From Candidatus Omnitrophota bacterium (GTDB lineage: Bacteria > Omnitrophota > Gorgyraeia > Zapsychrales > Fredricksoniimonadaceae): DNA of 47,294 nt. Shown piece after piece: positions 1,076-46,804 of the stretch. Both the position numbers and the translations under genes were made by a program. The stretch lies in contig CAJBYM010000081.1 of NCBI GenBank assembly GCA_903959815.1, positions 1 to 47,294 on the forward strand, read 5' to 3'. Numbering within the stretch: position 1 is the stretch's first letter; every line of letters begins with the position of its first letter. A model generated the notes under the pieces. It ran no database searches, was not told the origin of the DNA, and worked only from the letters and a program-made list of their open reading frames with translations.

Positions 1076-4000
1076 ATGGTCATAACATTCTCGCCCCTTA
1101 CCAGAAAGATCTCGCTCGCCATGGCTGTGATCTTTTTTATTTTCGCGGCCGGCCTTTTTTATGTCAACAAGATCCTGCTGCCCATACAAGTTAAAGGCAT
1201 GGCGATCCAAGCCGCAACCGATGCTCTCAAACGCAATGTCAGCTTTGATTCGCTTCAATACAGCCCTCTACGTGGCTTTGTCATCACCAATCTTATCATT
1301 ACCGAGAAAAATGATCCTTCGCGGACCTTTGTTCGTGCCAAAAACGCTTCAGCCCAGATCCTGTTCTTTGCCTTATTACAAAAGAAGTTGATCATCCCCT
1401 CACTGCGCATCGAATCACCCGAGATCGTGATCACACGAACCCGCAAAGATCTTTGGAATTTCAGTGATCTTCTTCCCGGGCCAGGATCTGCCGGAAACTC
1501 TGCATCCACCCCACCGCTAGACGTGATCATTAGCGGATTTACCATGACAGGCGGACACATTATCGTCAATGACCCAAGCCTCGAAGATAACTTCAGTGAA
1601 GAGATCAACGTGCCGCAGATCAAAGGATCTTTATCCCTCAAAGGAGCCTTCAACATATCGGGCGACATCTCCTTGCCAGCCACCCAGGGCTCTCTCAAAT
1701 TTGACACCCGCATCGGCATCCAGGATCAGTCTTTCAAAGGAACGTTCAAAGCTAAAAACATCAACATTAACCGCTACCTGCGTTTTTCTCCGTCCGATCT
1801 TCCTGTGAAGATCCAAAATCTTATGTTAGCTGACGCAGAGGTCTCCGCATTGCTTGAAGGCAAGAATGCAAACCTTTCCGCTGACATGACGCTACCCGCC
1901 CTCAATATCACCCTGAGCGACGGCACAAAAATCCAGGGTGATATCACGTTATCCAAAGTATTAGCCAGCATGAGCGGTGCCAATATTTCCGTCCACGGCT
2001 CTCTCTATGCCAATAAATTCGCGGCAGAAACAAGCACAGGCCTGACCCTCAACATGAGCACCCTGCGCACTGCCAATGCCCAGATGACTATTAAAGAAAA
2101 CTTGCTTACCGCTTCCGGAGATCTCGACGCCCGTGACATGGACCTTGTGCTCAATACCGATCAAAAAATAAAGGCCAGCGTCAACATCTCCGCCCTGACC
2201 GTCACACAAAACACAAAAGGATATGGCATCACCGGTGAAATCAAAGCAGATGATGTGCTTCTCATGTTAGGCAAAGACCAATCTCTCTCTGGCAATGCTA
2301 CGCTCAAGAAGATGTCCGCACTCATCGAAGGTTCTGCGATCGAAATGAAAACAGACGTGGATATCAAAGGGGCGGCGCTCAACCTGCCCGGCACATCCGT
2401 CAAAACCGACATCACGGCCCCAGGAACACGCCTGAACTTTGATGCAGGACGCCTCGAAACAGAGCTCCGCGCTGCTTTCAAAGATCTTTCCCTCAAGACC
2501 CAGAACATGTCCGTATCGGGAGCATCCAACGCACCGGAACTAACAGCTCACGTGATCCTCGATCCCAAGTCTGCATTGCCCTTAAGTTACACGGGGACTC
2601 TTAAACTCGCCGACCTTGCCATAAGTGGTGTGCCCCAAGTCGGTGAGATCAAAGACATCCGGGGAGAAATAACATTCAAGACCGAAAGCGCAGCCACAGA
2701 CACCCTGACCTTCACCGTACTTAACACCCCAGTCAACATCAATGGCGAGATCTCGAATTTCCAAAACCCCAAGATCAACGCAAGTGCCACGATCAATAAA
2801 GCCGACCTTTCCCTTATTGAGAAACTCATTCCCGAGCTCATCAAAGATCAAGGCCTGACCATCAAAGGCACTGCCGCCATCAATGCAACCTTCTCAGGAT
2901 CGTTGGCCAAAATACAAGAAGCCCAGATCAATGCAAATGCAAAACTTACTGACGCCAGCGTCGAAAGCAAGAAACTGAATCAGAGCGTATCTTCCATCAA
3001 CGGACTGGTCGAATACAAAACACCAGTCCTGTCATGGAAAGATCTTTCTGTCCGCTATCAGAACAAAGCCTGGACATCCCATGGCTCTTTGCAAGATTTT
3101 ATCAATCCCATCATCAGTGCTACTGTCGAAACAGAAAACCTGACCGCGAACATTGAAGCCAAGAAAAAAGACAGCAAGGTCCAGCTCACCTCCCTGTCAG
3201 GCACCTATTTCGATTCAACCTATGAACTGATCGGCGATATTTTCCTGCCGGAAGGACAGTCGCCAAACATCGACATCAACGGTGAATTCAAACTATCTTT
3301 ACGCGATCTGCCGAAAATGCTGCCGCCCGAACAGGCCAAACAGATCGAAGCCCTGCAACTCGCCGGCATCCTTAAGATCAAAACACAGCTCAAGGGCACG
3401 CCCCAGGACTGGCCATCTCTTACGTCCACAACTTCAATCGAGACTCCGGCCCTTTATATGCTGGGCTATCAGATCGCAGATCTGAACATCAACGCGCAAC
3501 AAAAAAATGGTGAAGTCAACCCGCTGACCATCAATGGCAAACTTTACGGCGGAGATCTCAACACAACCTCCACGGTTATGCTTAAAGAAAAAGGGTTCCC
3601 CTTCACAGCAAAAGCCAAACTCGATAATACGAGCCTGGAACTTCTCAAGAAAGATACGCCGCTCAAACAGCAGCAGCTCTCAGGCCTCGTTTTTGCCACA
3701 GCTGATCTTAAAGGCAACCTGATGGATATCCGCAGCATGCAAGGTGGCGTGACCATGAAGATCTCCCATGGATATCTGTGGTCGCTCGAGATCCTCTCGA
3801 AAGTATTAAGCATCCTCTCCTCCACATTCCAGGGGGGAGACGTCATCATCACGGATGCAGACGCGACCTTCAAGATCATCGATCAAAAGATCATGACCGA
3901 CAACCTCACGCTGCGCAGCGCAACCGTCACGCTCGTTGCTGAAGGCTGGGTCGACTTTGACCAGAACATTGAGCTTAATATCCGCCCGCGGATCGAACCA

Positions 4001-4180
4001 AAATCCTCGGATGGAACAACCAACCCTTTAACCATGATCAATCCGACGGACGGCCTGGTGAACATCCGGGTTTATAACACATTAACAGCGCCCAAGTTCG
4101 AACATAACATCAGCGCACCCCAAATGATCAAGAAAACCATCCAGAACACGGTTGGGACTTTTCTCAAAATGTTCGAATAA
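1076..4180 (+). CDS. AsmA/TamB-like large envelope protein (DUF748/AsmA-like repeats)
   Basis: N-terminal TM followed by ~950 aa of beta-rich AsmA-like repeats (FDSLQYSPLRGFVITNLIITE; C-terminal 'GGVTMKISHGYL...LTLRSATVTLVAEGWVDFDQNIELNIRPRI'). Confidence 0.75.
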   Translation: MVITFSPLTRKISLAMAVIFFIFAAGLFYVNKILLPIQVKGMAIQAATDALKRNVSFDSLQYSPLRGFVITNLIITEKNDPSRTFVRAKNASAQILFFALLQKKLIIPSLRIESPEIVITRTRKDLWNFSDLLPGPGSAGNSASTPPLDVIISGFTMTGGHIIVNDPSLEDNFSEEINVPQIKGSLSLKGAFNISGDISLPATQGSLKFDTRIGIQDQSFKGTFKAKNININRYLRFSPSDLPVKIQNLMLADAEVSALLEGKNANLSADMTLPALNITLSDGTKIQGDITLSKVLASMSGANISVHGSLYANKFAAETSTGLTLNMSTLRTANAQMTIKENLLTASGDLDARDMDLVLNTDQKIKASVNISALTVTQNTKGYGITGEIKADDVLLMLGKDQSLSGNATLKKMSALIEGSAIEMKTDVDIKGAALNLPGTSVKTDITAPGTRLNFDAGRLETELRAAFKDLSLKTQNMSVSGASNAPELTAHVILDPKSALPLSYTGTLKLADLAISGVPQVGEIKDIRGEITFKTESAATDTLTFTVLNTPVNINGEISNFQNPKINASATINKADLSLIEKLIPELIKDQGLTIKGTAAINATFSGSLAKIQEAQINANAKLTDASVESKKLNQSVSSINGLVEYKTPVLSWKDLSVRYQNKAWTSHGSLQDFINPIISATVETENLTANIEAKKKDSKVQLTSLSGTYFDSTYELIGDIFLPEGQSPNIDINGEFKLSLRDLPKMLPPEQAKQIEALQLAGILKIKTQLKGTPQDWPSLTSTTSIETPALYMLGYQIADLNINAQQKNGEVNPLTINGKLYGGDLNTTSTVMLKEKGFPFTAKAKLDNTSLELLKKDTPLKQQQLSGLVFATADLKGNLMDIRSMQGGVTMKISHGYLWSLEILSKVLSILSSTFQGGDVIITDADATFKIIDQKIMTDNLTLRSATVTLVAEGWVDFDQNIELNIRPRIEPKSSDGTTNPLTMINPTDGLVNIRVYNTLTAPKFEHNISAPQMIKKTIQNTVGTFLKMFE

Positions 4181-4225
4181 GCCCCGGTATAGACGGCCTT
4201 GCATTTTATGCGTCGTTGATCTAAG

Positions 4226-4435
4226 ATGTCGGTCATGATCCTGACCATCAACGGACAACCCAAAACAATTCCCGACGAGGCCTGTGTTCAAGCCACGGTC
4301 GCCCTCTTTTGCAAAGATCCTGGCCTGGTCATTGCAGAATTAAACGGCACCATCGTCGAACGCGCCCAATGGGCCGCCACACGCCTTAACTCCAACGACA
4401 AGCTCGAGCTGATCACCTTCGTCGGAGGCGGATAA
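4226..4435 (+). CDS. thiS: Sulfur carrier protein ThiS
   Basis: MILTINGQ... C-terminal LITFVGGG; immediately upstream of thiG. Confidence 0.9.
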   Translation: MSVMILTINGQPKTIPDEACVQATVALFCKDPGLVIAELNGTIVERAQWAATRLNSNDKLELITFVGGG

Positions 4436-4438
4436 ACC

Positions 4439-5209
4439 ATGCCCGATACATTTAAACTTGCAGGTCGAGAATTCCGCTCACGCTTCCTTCTGGGAACAGG
4501 AAAATTCAAGAACAAGGAAGATCTCAAGGATAGCATCATCGCATCCAAAGCCGAGATCGTAACGGTCGCGCTGCGCCGCATTGACCTTGAGCAGCATGAA
4601 AACAATATCCTAAGCTATATCCCCAAAAACGTAACGCTCCTGACAAACACCTCAGGTGCCCGTAACGCGGATGAAGCGGTGCGCATCGCGCGACTGGCCA
4701 AGGCCTCGGGGCAGGGCAACTGGATCAAGATCGAAGTCATCAATGATTCCAAATACCTCCTGCCTGACAATGAAGAAACTGTAAAGGCGACCAGGATCCT
4801 GGCTGCCGAAGGATTTGTGATCCTTCCTTACGTAACACCTGACCTTTACATCGCACGCAAACTTGTGGACGCTGGCGCTGCGGCTATCATGCCACTCGGA
4901 TCATTCATCGGATCAAACCTTGGTCTGCGCACACGCGAATTCATCCAGGTCCTGATCGACGAGATCGAGATCCCTGTCATCGTTGATGCCGGGATTGGCG
5001 CGCCATCACATGCGTGTGATGCCATGGAAATGGGCGCCGACGCGGTCCTGGTCAATACGGCTGTCGCTATCGCACAAAAACCGGCCGTCCTGGCCCGTGC
5101 GTTCGCACAAGCGGTCGAAGCTGGCCGTGCAGGATATTTAAGCGGCCTTCCATCTGCCCAACACACAGCTGATGCCTCTTCGCCCCTTACCGGATTTCTA
5201 TTCGAATGA
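4439..5209 (+). CDS. thiG: Thiazole synthase ThiG
   Basis: Characteristic FKLAGREFRSRFLLGTGKF..., DAGIGAPSHACDAMEMGADAVLVNTA. Confidence 0.97.
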   Translation: MPDTFKLAGREFRSRFLLGTGKFKNKEDLKDSIIASKAEIVTVALRRIDLEQHENNILSYIPKNVTLLTNTSGARNADEAVRIARLAKASGQGNWIKIEVINDSKYLLPDNEETVKATRILAAEGFVILPYVTPDLYIARKLVDAGAAAIMPLGSFIGSNLGLRTREFIQVLIDEIEIPVIVDAGIGAPSHACDAMEMGADAVLVNTAVAIAQKPAVLARAFAQAVEAGRAGYLSGLPSAQHTADASSPLTGFLFE

Positions 5210-41809: not shown

Positions 41810-42997
41810 ATGGCTACGCATATCGGCATAGGATTTTCATCCACCAGCGACCCTGTCGAAGCATTCAAAGCTGCCGCCATCGAGGCCAAGACCCAACTGA
41901 ATGCCGTGCACACCGACCTCGTCATCATCTTTGCAACATCCGCTTACGCGAACACCCAGGGCATCGTAACATTACAACGCATCCTGCAACCCAAGCGCCT
42001 GATTGGGTCGATCACGCCCGGGATCATCTTCGGCGACCGCGTGGAAACACGTGGTGTCGGCGTCATGGCCATCATCTCCGATGATTGGCATTTCTCGACC
42101 GCAAGCCTAGATCAATTAAACCTGATTCCAGCACGCGAAGCCGGCTATAGTCTGGCGCAATCTCTTTTGGCTGATCACAAAACTCCCCAACGCAGCACCT
42201 GCCTCTATTTCTACGACGGACTTCGTAAGAACGGAACTCAGTTTTGTGCCGGGATCCGTGAAGAACTGGGCAATGCTTTGCCGATCGTCGGCGCCATTGG
42301 GGTCGACAGCACCAAAATCACCGCCACCCATCATTTTTATCAGGACCGCATCCTGGCAGACGCAGCCGTCGGCCTGCTGATCGGAGGTGCCAGTGTTGTT
42401 TCCATCGCAGCCCGCCACAGCTGGCAACCCCTGGGAAAACCCAGGATCATTGACAACTCGAGTGGGAACGTCATCCTCAGCATTGACAAACAACCCGCCG
42501 TGCGACTTTACGAAAATTATTTTCATGCCGCAGACGCCATCTTAAGAGCGGAACAGCTCGAAGATATCCGCCTGCTTTATCCGCTGGGTATCGGCACATC
42601 AACGCCCAGAGAATATTTGATCCGCATGCCTATTGACATACCGGATGACGGTAGTATCTTATGTCAGGGAGATGTATCGACGGGAAGTCCGGTGCATTTG
42701 ATGATCACCGATAAAGATGCCTGCCGCCAAAGCATCCACGATGCGGCGATGGACATCCGGACCCAGCTTTTCGGAAAACAACCCAAGTTCATTCTTGTGT
42801 TTGAATCTCTGATGCGCCGCAAGATCCTTGGCCGCAGCGGCATACAAGGGATCCATGCGATCCAGGAAGTTCTGGGCCATTCGGTCCCCGTCTTCGGCAT
42901 GTACACCGCCGGTGAAGTGGCGCCTCTGGGAACGCTAAAAACAGTATCACGAACTCAGCTCTTAAACGGGAGTGTTGTACTCCTAGCGATCGGATAA
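41810..42997 (+). CDS. FIST (FIST_N/FIST_C) sensory domain protein
   Basis: GIGFSSTSDPVEAFKAAAIEAKTQL..., GMYTAGEVAPLGTLKTVSRTQLLNGSVVLLAI. Confidence 0.9.
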   Translation: MATHIGIGFSSTSDPVEAFKAAAIEAKTQLNAVHTDLVIIFATSAYANTQGIVTLQRILQPKRLIGSITPGIIFGDRVETRGVGVMAIISDDWHFSTASLDQLNLIPAREAGYSLAQSLLADHKTPQRSTCLYFYDGLRKNGTQFCAGIREELGNALPIVGAIGVDSTKITATHHFYQDRILADAAVGLLIGGASVVSIAARHSWQPLGKPRIIDNSSGNVILSIDKQPAVRLYENYFHAADAILRAEQLEDIRLLYPLGIGTSTPREYLIRMPIDIPDDGSILCQGDVSTGSPVHLMITDKDACRQSIHDAAMDIRTQLFGKQPKFILVFESLMRRKILGRSGIQGIHAIQEVLGHSVPVFGMYTAGEVAPLGTLKTVSRTQLLNGSVVLLAIG

Positions 42998-43000
42998 TGC

Positions 43001-44563
43001 ATGGCCGGTGTCGCATACCCTGTTAACCAGGTTGATATTACCCCGTTTCTTATTGTGGCAAGCCTGCTCCTCGTCCTGGGGATCAGTGTACTCGCCTACT
43101 TCTTCATTGGAAAGAGCGAAGAGTTTAAAGAACTGAAGGCCTCATTCGATAAAATGATGCGCTCTTTCAATGAACTCGATGAACAAGCCAAGCTCATCGT
43201 CAAAACCGACCTGGAACTGAACAAGATCCAGGAAGAGCTCGACCGCCGTCTCATCGGGCTGAACACACTGCAAAAACTCGCCCGCACTATGAGCATGACC
43301 CTTGATGAACAAGAACTCTTCCAGAAAATCAACCAGGACCTTGCCACAGAACTTGGCTTTTCACGCGCGCTGGTGCTCGCCTACGATGAGAACAACGCGA
43401 TGAATACGCGCGTCAATATCGGGATCGATCCTTCCAAGCTCGAGCACATTCAAAGCGAGCTGACCGTGGATCCCCAGTTCTTAAATGCGCTTAAGAACGG
43501 CATGACATTTTCATCTCTGAACTCATCGCAAAAAACAAAAGCCCGCATCGTCCAACTTTTTGAAACAGAACATTTCATCCTTTCGCCGCTGCTCACACAG
43601 CGGGGAGTTTCAGGTGCGCTATTCGTAGGCAATCGCTACACCTCACCTGCCGTAACGGAAGGTGACGAAGAGATCGTGGCGATCCTGGCCAGCCAATTGG
43701 CCCAATCGCTGGAAAACTCCCAACTCTTCGAACAGGTTTACAGCTCCAGCCGCACACTGGAAACCAAGGTCAATGAACGCACCAAAGAACTCTCGCATGC
43801 GCTTAAAGACGTCGAAGAGATCTCAAAAAAGAAATCAGAATTTATCTCTGCCGTTTCGCATGAACTGCGCACGCCGCTGACATCCATTAAAGGCTATGCC
43901 TCGATCCTCATGACAGGAAAAGTCGGCGAGATCCCGGATGCGGTCAAAGAACGCCTGGGCAAGATCAATACGCACTCCGACAACCTTGTGAAGCTCATCA
44001 ACGACCTTCTGGATATTTCACGCATCGAATCCGGCCGCGTCGAAATGAAGGCCGAACCCCATGCGATCCGCCCGATGCTAGACAACATTTCAGATCTGCT
44101 GACACCACAGCTCAGGGATAAAGGTGTTACCATCAAACTCAATATTCCTGCAGATCTGCCGATGCTTGAATACGACGACACCCAGCTTGACCGCGTCTTT
44201 ATCAACCTCATCGGTAATGCGATCAAGTTCACGCCAGCCAACGGCATCATCACGGTCAACGCGCATCCCAATCTTGAACGGCGTGAAGTTGTTTTTGAAG
44301 TGGCGGATACCGGCATCGGGATCAACAAAGAAAACTTAACCAAGCTTTTTGACGAATTCTTCCGCGTGGACAATGAGATCAACATGAAAGTTAAAGGTAC
44401 AGGGCTTGGCCTGGCACTGGCCAAGAATATTGTCGAGGCTCACTATGGTCACATGTGGGTCACAAGCGAAGAAGGCCATGGAACAACGTTCCACTTTACG
44501 ATCCCGTTTGAACACAAACTTAAAGAAACCAAGAAAACCAAAAAAACCATAGGTGACGCATGA
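43001..44563 (+). CDS. Membrane sensor histidine kinase with GAF domain
   Basis: N-term TM, GAF-like region, AVSHELRTPLTSIKGYASIL, DTGIGI, KGTGLGLALA. Confidence 0.93.
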   Translation: MAGVAYPVNQVDITPFLIVASLLLVLGISVLAYFFIGKSEEFKELKASFDKMMRSFNELDEQAKLIVKTDLELNKIQEELDRRLIGLNTLQKLARTMSMTLDEQELFQKINQDLATELGFSRALVLAYDENNAMNTRVNIGIDPSKLEHIQSELTVDPQFLNALKNGMTFSSLNSSQKTKARIVQLFETEHFILSPLLTQRGVSGALFVGNRYTSPAVTEGDEEIVAILASQLAQSLENSQLFEQVYSSSRTLETKVNERTKELSHALKDVEEISKKKSEFISAVSHELRTPLTSIKGYASILMTGKVGEIPDAVKERLGKINTHSDNLVKLINDLLDISRIESGRVEMKAEPHAIRPMLDNISDLLTPQLRDKGVTIKLNIPADLPMLEYDDTQLDRVFINLIGNAIKFTPANGIITVNAHPNLERREVVFEVADTGIGINKENLTKLFDEFFRVDNEINMKVKGTGLGLALAKNIVEAHYGHMWVTSEEGHGTTFHFTIPFEHKLKETKKTKKTIGDA

Positions 44564-45501
44564 AACGCGAGAGGATCCTGATCATCGACGACGACCCGGA
44601 CATCCTGGATGTCCTGGAACTAACGCTTTCCGAACGCTTTGATGTGATCAAGGCGGCCAACGGCGCCGAAGGCCTGACCCAGGCGCGTACCGGTAACCCT
44701 GATATCATCATCACAGACTATATGATGCCGGTCATGAACGGCCCGGATTTCTGCAAAGAACTGCGCAAAGATGTGCTTTTAACCCACATCCCCATCATCA
44801 TGCTGACGGGCAAAGGTGAAACCAAGGATATGGTCAAAGGGATCAATGCCGGTGCTGACGACTACCTGATCAAGCCCTTTGAACCCGAAAGTCTCCTGGC
44901 ACGCATCAGCATGATCGTGGCGCGTACCATACGAAACCTGGACGCCAATCCACTGACCCATCTGCCCGGCAATGCCTCGATCATGGATGAACTGCAAAGC
45001 CGCATCGAAAGCGGCAGCGCATTTGCTGTCGGATACTGTGACCTGGATAAATTCAAACTTTATAACGATAAATACGGATTTGAAAAAGGTGATGAGATCA
45101 TCAAAGCCACAGCCCGCACGATCATCCAGGCGGCAAAGGCCCAAACAGCAAGCAATGTTTTCGTGGGACATATCGGTGGAGATGATTTTGTTTTCGTTTC
45201 GGATGACAACATCGCGGACACCATCAGCCAAAAGATCATTGACCTTTTTGATGCCGCAGCTCCGAGCTTCTACTCGGAAGAAGACCGCGAAACAGGCTAT
45301 ATCATCGGGAAAGACCGGCAGGGCAATGAAATGCGTACAGGTTTAATGTCGATCTCCATCGGCATTGTGTCCAATGCGTTCACCAAGATCACCCACGTGG
45401 CACAGATCGGTGAGATCGGGGCAGAATTAAAGAAGTTTGCTAAGGGGCAGGATAAAAGCAATTACGTCAGGGACAAGCGAAAAACCGAACGGGCGCCTTA
45501 A
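44560..45501 (+). CDS. Response regulator with GGDEF-type output domain (GGDDF variant)
   Basis: IIDDDPDILD..ITDYMMPVMNG..LIKPFEPE then GYCDLDKFKLYNDKYGFEKGDEII ... HIGGDDFVFVSDD. Confidence 0.92.
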   Translation: MKRERILIIDDDPDILDVLELTLSERFDVIKAANGAEGLTQARTGNPDIIITDYMMPVMNGPDFCKELRKDVLLTHIPIIMLTGKGETKDMVKGINAGADDYLIKPFEPESLLARISMIVARTIRNLDANPLTHLPGNASIMDELQSRIESGSAFAVGYCDLDKFKLYNDKYGFEKGDEIIKATARTIIQAAKAQTASNVFVGHIGGDDFVFVSDDNIADTISQKIIDLFDAAAPSFYSEEDRETGYIIGKDRQGNEMRTGLMSISIGIVSNAFTKITHVAQIGEIGAELKKFAKGQDKSNYVRDKRKTERAP

Positions 45502-46055
45502 TCTCCTCCACCAGAAGGATGAGTCTCGCAGTGCCCATAGGGCTGGCTTGGAAGACAAACTTCCTCTTGATTATACATTACGCCCGTCTCTATACCATCT
45601 GGACACGGCGCTTCGTCGCAAGCTTCACGGGGCCCAGACCAGGTCCCCAAATGACAATACCAAAAGTGACAGTCAGGTGGCGGTGGCGGTGGCGGCCCTG
45701 CGGAACAATCCCCTCGCCTGATCGCAACATCAACACAAGCCGTCCCTCCAAAAGCCGGACGCGGACAAGCGCACTCACGGGCCTGAAAGCCATCAATACA
45801 AGAACTCCACTGGCACCAACCTCCGTCGATCTTGGACGGATTGACACTGGTAAAGGTCGTCCCGTCAAAATAACCACCCATGATCGCCCGAGTACCCGTA
45901 TTAAAATATTCCGCTGTCTTATTATGGGTGCGTTCCAATACACCGCCGCCATTATTCTTGAACGCCAAGAACACAATGACAACCACCACAACCATAACAA
46001 GAATATACTCCATCATGGTCTGGGCTTTTAAATAGAGAGGGCGGTGTTTGTTCAT
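45498..46055 (-). CDS. Class III signal-peptide pilin-like protein with thrombospondin type-1-like Cys domain
   Basis: KA|QTMMEYILVMVVVVVIVFLAF; GGWCQWSSCIDGFQARECACPRPAFGGTACVDVAIRRGDC; Pro7 linker; second Cys-rich segment. Confidence 0.7.
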   Translation of the reverse strand: MNKHRPLYLKAQTMMEYILVMVVVVVIVFLAFKNNGGGVLERTHNKTAEYFNTGTRAIMGGYFDGTTFTSVNPSKIDGGWCQWSSCIDGFQARECACPRPAFGGTACVDVAIRRGDCSAGPPPPPPPDCHFWYCHLGTWSGPREACDEAPCPDGIETGVMYNQEEVCLPSQPYGHCETHPSGGGD

Positions 46056-46087: not shown

Positions 46088-46804
46088 CTAAACAACAAGG
46101 CTCTTCAATCCTTCCGCCACAGCCTTAGGATCATGACTCAAAAAGAAATAGCTCGCGGTCACAAGAACATTCGCTCCTGCCTTAACAATACCGGGCGCGG
46201 TCGCAGCATTCACCCCGCCATCGACCGCAATATCCTTGTTAAACCCCTGAGCACGCAACCACTTGATCTTATCCAAAGCGGAAGGCATGAATTTCTGCCC
46301 TGAAAACCCGGGATTAACCGACATGACAAGAATATGATCCACATCATTTAACAAAGGCAATAAACATGTCACCGGCGTTCCAGGATTAAGCGTAACACCC
46401 GCCTGTTTACCTTTGGCTTTGATCCGACGAATATCGCGCAAAATTTTTCCAGGATCAATAACATCCACTTCCTTGGGATATTGACCATAAACCTGGCATG
46501 CCGCACGACGCTCGCCATAGCACTCGGCATGGACAATAATAATATCCGCACCTGCATCGGCAAAAGCATCCACATAATCCCAGGGATTCTCGATCATCAA
46601 ATGCGTGGCGACCGGCAACTTTGTATACGCACGGACCGCCTGTGTCACAACCGCTCCAATGGTGATATTCGGCACAAAGTGGCCATCCATCACATCCACA
46701 TGAATGCGGTCGATACCCGAGCGCTCACAAAGCTGTAAAGCTTCAGCGATCTTTCCAAAGTCGGCCGATAGAATGCTGGCGCTAACAATAATATTCTGTG
46801 ACAT
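46088..46804 (-). CDS. rpe: Ribulose-phosphate 3-epimerase
   Basis: SASILSADFGKIAEAL, HVDVMDGHFVPNIT, MSVNPGFSGQKF, VDGGVN. Confidence 0.98.
   Translation of the reverse strand: MSQNIIVSASILSADFGKIAEALQLCERSGIDRIHVDVMDGHFVPNITIGAVVTQAVRAYTKLPVATHLMIENPWDYVDAFADAGADIIIVHAECYGERRAACQVYGQYPKEVDVIDPGKILRDIRRIKAKGKQAGVTLNPGTPVTCLLPLLNDVDHILVMSVNPGFSGQKFMPSALDKIKWLRAQGFNKDIAVDGGVNAATAPGIVKAGANVLVTASYFFLSHDPKAVAEGLKSLVV

Follow-up and report, generated by a model that had tools for sequence, protein, structure and literature searches.

Gene organization of the locus

The window, by which we mean the whole 47,294-nucleotide stretch of DNA analysed here, comes from a Candidatus Omnitrophota bacterium. 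It carries a complete gene for a pilin-like protein with a thrombospondin type-1 (TSP1)-like domain, together with rpe and three genes for a response regulator, a sensor histidine kinase and a FIST-domain protein (Table 1). The translation of the pilin ORF begins MNKHRPLYLKAQTMMEYILVMVVVVVIVFLAFK, and the TSP1-like stretch and seven prolines lie inside it. All the peptides quoted in the preliminary description were located where that description placed them. An antisense ORF of 170 aa on the plus strand (45519-46031) was taken as a by-product.

Table 1. Features of the pilin locus in the window
Feature	Position	Strand	Basis
FIST-domain protein	41810..42997	+	Pfam FIST 5.5e-33, FIST_C 7.6e-22, synteny
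Sensor histidine kinase with GAF region	43001..44563	+	Pfam HisKA, HATPase_c, GAF, synteny
Response regulator with GGDEF, convergent, 4-base end overlap with the pilin ORF	44560..45501	+	Pfam Response_reg and GGDEF, synteny
Complete CDS, class III/Flp-type prepilin with TSP1-like domain, 185 aa	45498..46055	-	ATG start, kept in 25/32 family genomes
Cys-rich C-terminal segment, lineage-specific, residues 128-185	45501..45674	-	C-part comparison, AlphaFold2 pLDDT mostly <60
Poly-proline linker PPPPPPP, residues 121-127	45675..45695	-	Sequence
Reduced TSP1-like domain IDGGWCQWSSC...RECACPRPAFGGTAC...C, residues 76-117	45705..45830	-	PDB profile hits, hhalign, AlphaFold2, Foldseek
Pilin helix, hydrophobic then amphipathic, residues 12-59	45879..46022	-	AlphaFold2 helices
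Prepilin leader MNKHRPLYLKA, residues 1-11; predicted cleavage Ala11/Gln12	46023..46055	-	Sequence, Q12/E16 invariant, Class_IIIsignal 18/24
rpe, ribulose-phosphate 3-epimerase, 32 bases upstream of the pilin ORF	46088..46804	-	TIGR01163 above cut-off, Pfam, synteny

No tRNA and no terminator-like site was found between rpe and the pilin ORF, and in 14 of the 17 external loci rpe lies directly upstream of the pilin gene. In almost every locus with context, the FIST / GAF histidine kinase / GGDEF response regulator triad (41810-45501 in the window) and the pilin gene are convergent. Of the 15 loci with contigs long enough to include it, 14 have the triad adjacent and convergent; only the relocated locus L039 departs from this. 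In L033 and L040, the triad is retained though rpe is not adjacent.

Distribution and conservation of the family

A survey of homologues with this architecture, which the preliminary description had suggested, found them (E <= 0.01) in 25 of the 32 genomes of the same taxonomic family and in 12 of its 14 genera. All 11 near-complete genomes of the family have the gene, generally in one copy per genome. The ORF proposed at the outset is therefore a real, conserved and syntenic gene. The family alignment was also scanned against one genome per species (GTDB r220). Of the 17 loci obtained, 16 carry the title Candidatus Omnitrophota or Omnitrophica, and the remaining one has the title 'bacterium' alone. 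In the phylum-wide search, strong full-length matches were confined to the taxonomic family of the window, and in other Omnitrophota families it was mostly the pilin helix alone that matched.

Twelve positions are invariant in the 24 aligned members (M1, Q12, E16, G78, W80, C81, C95, C97, P98, A101, G104 and C107), and Y17 is nearly invariant. The consensus of the domain core is GGWC...RxCxCPxPAFGGxxC. The gene family appears to be vertically kept. Horizontal acquisition by the window genome was rejected, since in almost every locus with context the gene keeps its syntenic position.

Prepilin N-terminus and Tad machinery

Class III/Flp pilins have a short leader followed by Gln at +1, Glu at +5 and Tyr at +6. 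The N-terminus of the window protein reads KA/Q with Glu at +5 and Tyr at +6, and consists of a short leader and a hydrophobic helix. Among the 24 members, Pfam matches at E <= 1 were obtained to Class_IIIsignal (PF04021) in 18, to Flp_Fap in 6 and to TadE in 1. The best Class_IIIsignal E-value among the members was 2.7e-6; the window protein itself has no Class_IIIsignal match above threshold. In the full-length AlphaFold2 model, helices cover residues 8-33 and 39-59, with a pLDDT of about 93 over residues 11-30. The class III/Flp prepilin context recognized in the preliminary description (A/Q cleavage with Glu at +5) is thus borne out by the invariant Q12 and E16 and by the helix, and the Class_IIIsignal, Flp_Fap and TadE models, the latter two proposed there as a check, gave the matches listed above in part of the family.

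The same description had advised looking for Tad or T2SS machinery, and a Tad cluster is present in the genome, on contig C63, with RcpC/CpaB, a secretin, the CpaE-CpaF ATPase and then three pilins. All three pilins share the [GA]Q-xxx-EY motif, and one of them reads KA/QNTAEY. The genome also has one A24 prepilin-peptidase gene. The pilin gene of the window lies outside the Tad cluster, beside rpe. Of the 11 near-complete family genomes, 10 have RcpC, as do 61 of the 81 genomes of the order. RcpC is so common in the order that its co-occurrence with TSP1 pilins is weak evidence; it shows the means, not a linkage. RcpC was not found in G020, G027, G243 and G217, all of which have TSP1 pilins, so dependence on Tad is not proven, and missing contigs are possible in these genomes.

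Two fusions occur among the Tad genes on C63. The RcpA-type secretin (L064, 657-2366, plus strand) carries a C-terminal TonB_C domain (PF03544, 2e-16), which is an unusual fusion. A single 726 aa ORF (L064, 2379-4559, plus strand) encodes a CpaE-like ParA ATPase joined to a CpaF-like T2SSE ATPase. A second Cys-rich class III pilin-like protein of 123 aa (KA/QGIIEYIVLV...) with no TSP1 match is encoded on contig C51 of the same genome (L066, 2475-2846, plus strand).

The TSP1-like domain

Most known TSP1 domains belong to adhesion proteins of animals and protists. The preliminary description had assigned the TSP1 pattern to the mature part of the window protein and had proposed a HMMER check against Pfam TSP_1. 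Taken alone, the protein scored 10.6 bits (E 0.71) against Pfam TSP_1, below the cut-off of 21.6, and single-sequence searches of Pfam, NCBIfam and PDB gave no significant TSP1 match. The check with the single protein therefore failed, and the relation to TSP1 becomes significant only with the family profile. When the full-length family profile was searched against the whole PDB, TSP1 proteins came out on top (UNC5B, 1.3e-6). With the profile of the domain only, the first 18 matches were all TSP1-containing, in the order ADAMTS13 (1.2e-4, the best E-value), thrombospondin-1 (1.8e-4), and then complement C6, C7 and UNC5D. Reversed domain sequences, used as a control, gave no match in the whole PDB up to E = 10. 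Profile-profile comparison by hhalign with six eukaryotic TSP1 sequences gave 95.8% (E 6.9e-9), compared with 0.2% for the reversed set. The maximum over 200 column shuffles and 200 Cys-spacing-preserving shuffles was 27.7%, and none of the 400 reached the real score. The six TSP1 sequences were chosen from the PDB hits, which makes the hhalign test somewhat favourable; the PDB search is unaffected. PF00090 gave only sub-threshold matches in the window's own genome, and these were discarded because weak matches also occurred in 8 of 14 control genomes.

The full-length AlphaFold2 model had a mean pLDDT of 65.7, with low confidence outside the helix, and no PDB match was found for it, so a domain-only model was used. 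The domain-only model reached a mean pLDDT of 88. In Foldseek, ranks 1-38 were all TSP1-containing structures, with a TM-score to the query of up to 0.75. The E-values were 0.026 or weaker, which is expected for 50 residues. The AlphaFold check for the TSP1 fold, also proposed at the outset, thus points to a TSP1-like fold as far as a predicted model can.

The domain of the window protein has about 45 residues. It resembles TSP1 (PF00090; thrombospondin-1, ADAMTS13, UNC5, complement C6) in the xGGW start, R-x-C, P-x-P-x-FGG-x2-C and the last Cys, and the window member also has W-x2-W. Both the profile and the predicted fold pick TSP1 from the whole PDB. Relative to TSP1, the C-S-x-x-C-G-G-G segment and the final Cys are missing from the window domain (in the alignment they correspond to the canonical C2-C6 pair), a single Arg stands where TSP1 has R-x-R, and a W-C / C-x-C-P pair has been added. 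C81, C95, C97 and C107 are the family-invariant cysteines of the domain, and C86 and C117 are also present in the window member. The window domain has two Trp, one of them invariant. The full set of six Cys in three canonical disulfides and the complete W-x2-W-x2-W / R-x-R ladder are absent from it. It is best classed as TSP1-like, in a reduced and modified form, and falls short of a canonical TSP1 domain. Of the original assignment, the resemblance is upheld by the family profile and the fold, and the full TSP1 pattern is not; the WSxC element is present in the window member but is not general in the family.

Omnitrophota pilins with TSP1 domains above the Pfam cut-off appear, from their sequences, to bridge the gap between the window domain and TSP1. 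TSP_1 scored above the cut-off in 8 of the 81 genomes of the order, and no match at E <= 0.001 was found in the 14 control genomes. A pilin-like N-terminus was present in 6 of the 9 above-cut-off proteins, and class III pilin starts occur with such a domain in G183, G217, G243, G008 and G031. Related pilins also bear other TSP1 copies and Cys-rich repeats. The proteins of G183 (VDGGWCSFGPCSQACGGGIQSRSCSCPPPSAGG; VDGGWCSFGPCSQACGGGIQSRSCSCPPPSAGGDDC), G243 and the non-pilin G394 have the full TSP1 pattern plus the extra W-C / C-x-C-P cysteines of the window family. Since these three combine both patterns, the window domain reads as a TSP1 domain from which the CSxxCGGG segment has disappeared along with its disulfide, while the added disulfide has been kept, with the disulfide pairs assigned from the alignment. 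In the G394 protein (L115, contig C194, 880-3675, plus strand), which is not a pilin, a DHOR (di-haem oxidoreductase) precedes three WC/CAC-subtype TSP1 domains and a dockerin domain.

The variable C-terminal tail

The PPPPPPP run and the Cys-rich segment noted in the preliminary description are both present, with the correction that the Cys-rich segment is lineage-specific. The part following the domain ranges from 2 to 775 residues across the members, with a Cys content of up to 18.7%. The short orthologues of 109-128 aa (L004, L006, L010, L011, L016, L017 and L022) have almost nothing after the domain. Tails often cannot be aligned between species whose neighbouring genes are 80-90% identical. 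For example, rpe, the response regulator and the N-terminal part are 89%, 86% and 70% identical between L044 and L047, and the tails give no alignment. Several further pairs give the same picture, among them the window protein and its same-genus orthologues, to whose C-terminal parts its tail showed no significant similarity. In some pairs (L038/L040, L031/L034 and L043/L044), the tails are alignable. As tails are often unalignable where the neighbours are conserved, the tail changes faster than its surroundings, and this change may come partly from the exchange of repeat units. The tail of the L047 orthologue (3376-4947) is not Cys-rich (2.6% Cys), unlike those of its long-tailed relatives.

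Proposed function

We believe, with a probability of about 0.6, that the window protein is a minor or tip pilin of the Tad/Flp type, which would show its TSP1-like module and species-specific tail for attachment. The predicted cleavage by a prepilin peptidase falls after Ala11. The helix at the N-terminus would pack into the pilus, or sit in the inner membrane before assembly. The pilus would display the compact reduced TSP1-like domain outside the cell, followed by the species-specific Cys-rich extension. The domain probably serves as a conserved base, either structural or adhesive, and target specificity in attaching to other cells or to surfaces may come from the variable extension. Genomes generally have one copy, as would fit a minor subunit. 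A large extension is dispensable, given that several orthologues stop directly behind the domain. We infer processing, incorporation into a Tad pilus, surface exposure, adhesion and control by the FIST-kinase-GGDEF genes. The host- or prey-attached lifestyle raised in the preliminary description would be compatible with this function. A more far-reaching version, which we hold only tentatively, makes TSP1-tipped pili into organs of host or prey recognition. Here a bacterial TSP1 subtype whose disulfide has been relocated (WC to CxC) would be the unchanging mount for a Cys-rich tail that diversifies quickly at its fixed locus and so tracks its targets, and the neighbouring FIST-kinase-GGDEF genes would read out contact.

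The protein may instead be a pseudopilin (TadE/F-like) that resides in the membrane or periplasm and primes assembly, with the TSP1-like domain as a disulfide-stabilised spacer for subunit contacts and no adhesive role. We regard this as unlikely, but as a serious competitor. The 109-128 aa orthologues with almost no tail suggest that the conserved job of the domain may be structural, and the domain, with its invariant GxWC, CxCP and AxxG, is more conserved than expected of a receptor-binding face. However, the Cys-rich extensions of other members vary strongly and reach 775 aa, which is typical of exposed proteins, and the further TSP1 copies and Cys-rich repeats of related pilins also speak against a purely internal role. 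The resemblance to TSP1 could itself be convergent, so that a short, cysteine-rich WC/CxC/GG knot of separate ancestry looks like TSP1 in sequence and predicted fold. Across the family, no more than four Cys and one Trp recur generally, canonical TSP1 cysteines are absent and extra ones present, the single-sequence TSP_1 match is not significant, and small disulfide-rich domains are able to converge. Against this, the intermediates G183, G243 and G394 join the extra WC/CxC pair to a full TSP1 pattern above the Pfam cut-off, and the Cys-spacing-preserving shuffles never came near the real score, which makes convergence rather improbable.

A structural or electron-transfer pilin, whose Cys-rich segments bind metals or haem-like cofactors and which is not an adhesin, would account for the high Cys content of the tails, and conductive pilins have been predicted in some Omnitrophota classes (PMC10066038). 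In the sequences read, however, the cysteines fall into disulfide-domain patterns (TSP1 and CGxGxC...CxxDC repeats) with no CXXCH haem motifs, and the best fold matches are adhesion and complement domains. We therefore give this explanation very little weight.

The proposed attachment pilin has several known counterparts. Like Tad/Flp and class III prepilins (PF04021, PF04964, PF07811), the window protein has a short leader, [GA]/Q, Glu at +5, Tyr at +6 and one hydrophobic helix, and a Tad cluster is present in the genome; it differs in its C-terminal disulfide domain and in being encoded away from that cluster. In Caulobacter crescentus, the Tad minor pilin CpaL bears a fused vWA domain and is predicted to sit at the pilus tip (PMC12607857). 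CpaL and the window protein each join a pilin-like N-terminus to a kind of domain that is familiar chiefly from adhesion proteins of animals. In the window protein, a TSP1-like domain replaces vWA, and its homologue family is confined to Omnitrophota and known from sequence alone. PilY1 is a separate tip protein held by the minor pilins of type IV pili (PMC9210963). It places a Cys-containing adhesion domain at the pilus tip, as the window protein would, but in the window protein pilin and domain form one chain. Tad and type-4a pili have been reported in Omnitrophota and linked to host-dependent lifestyles, with Tad among the symbiosis traits (PMC10066038). Our literature searches turned up nothing relevant on TSP1 pilins or on thrombospondin in Omnitrophota; a single paper mentions type-3 repeats, and only these.

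A bacterial pilin family built on a reduced TSP1 domain would show the TSP1 fold in use on pili. It would also supply a specific candidate for the means by which Omnitrophota that are uncultured, and often ultra-small, attach to other cells. With a constant mount and a frequently unalignable tail paired at one locus, target tracking can be tested by comparing metagenomes. The joining of TSP1 to pilins may also extend beyond class III starts. In a protein of G023 (L097, contig C142), an MTLIE-type type IV pilin-like start, read from the sequence without confirmation by a Pfam pilin model, stands before a TSP1 domain above the cut-off, which suggests a second pilin class joined to TSP1.
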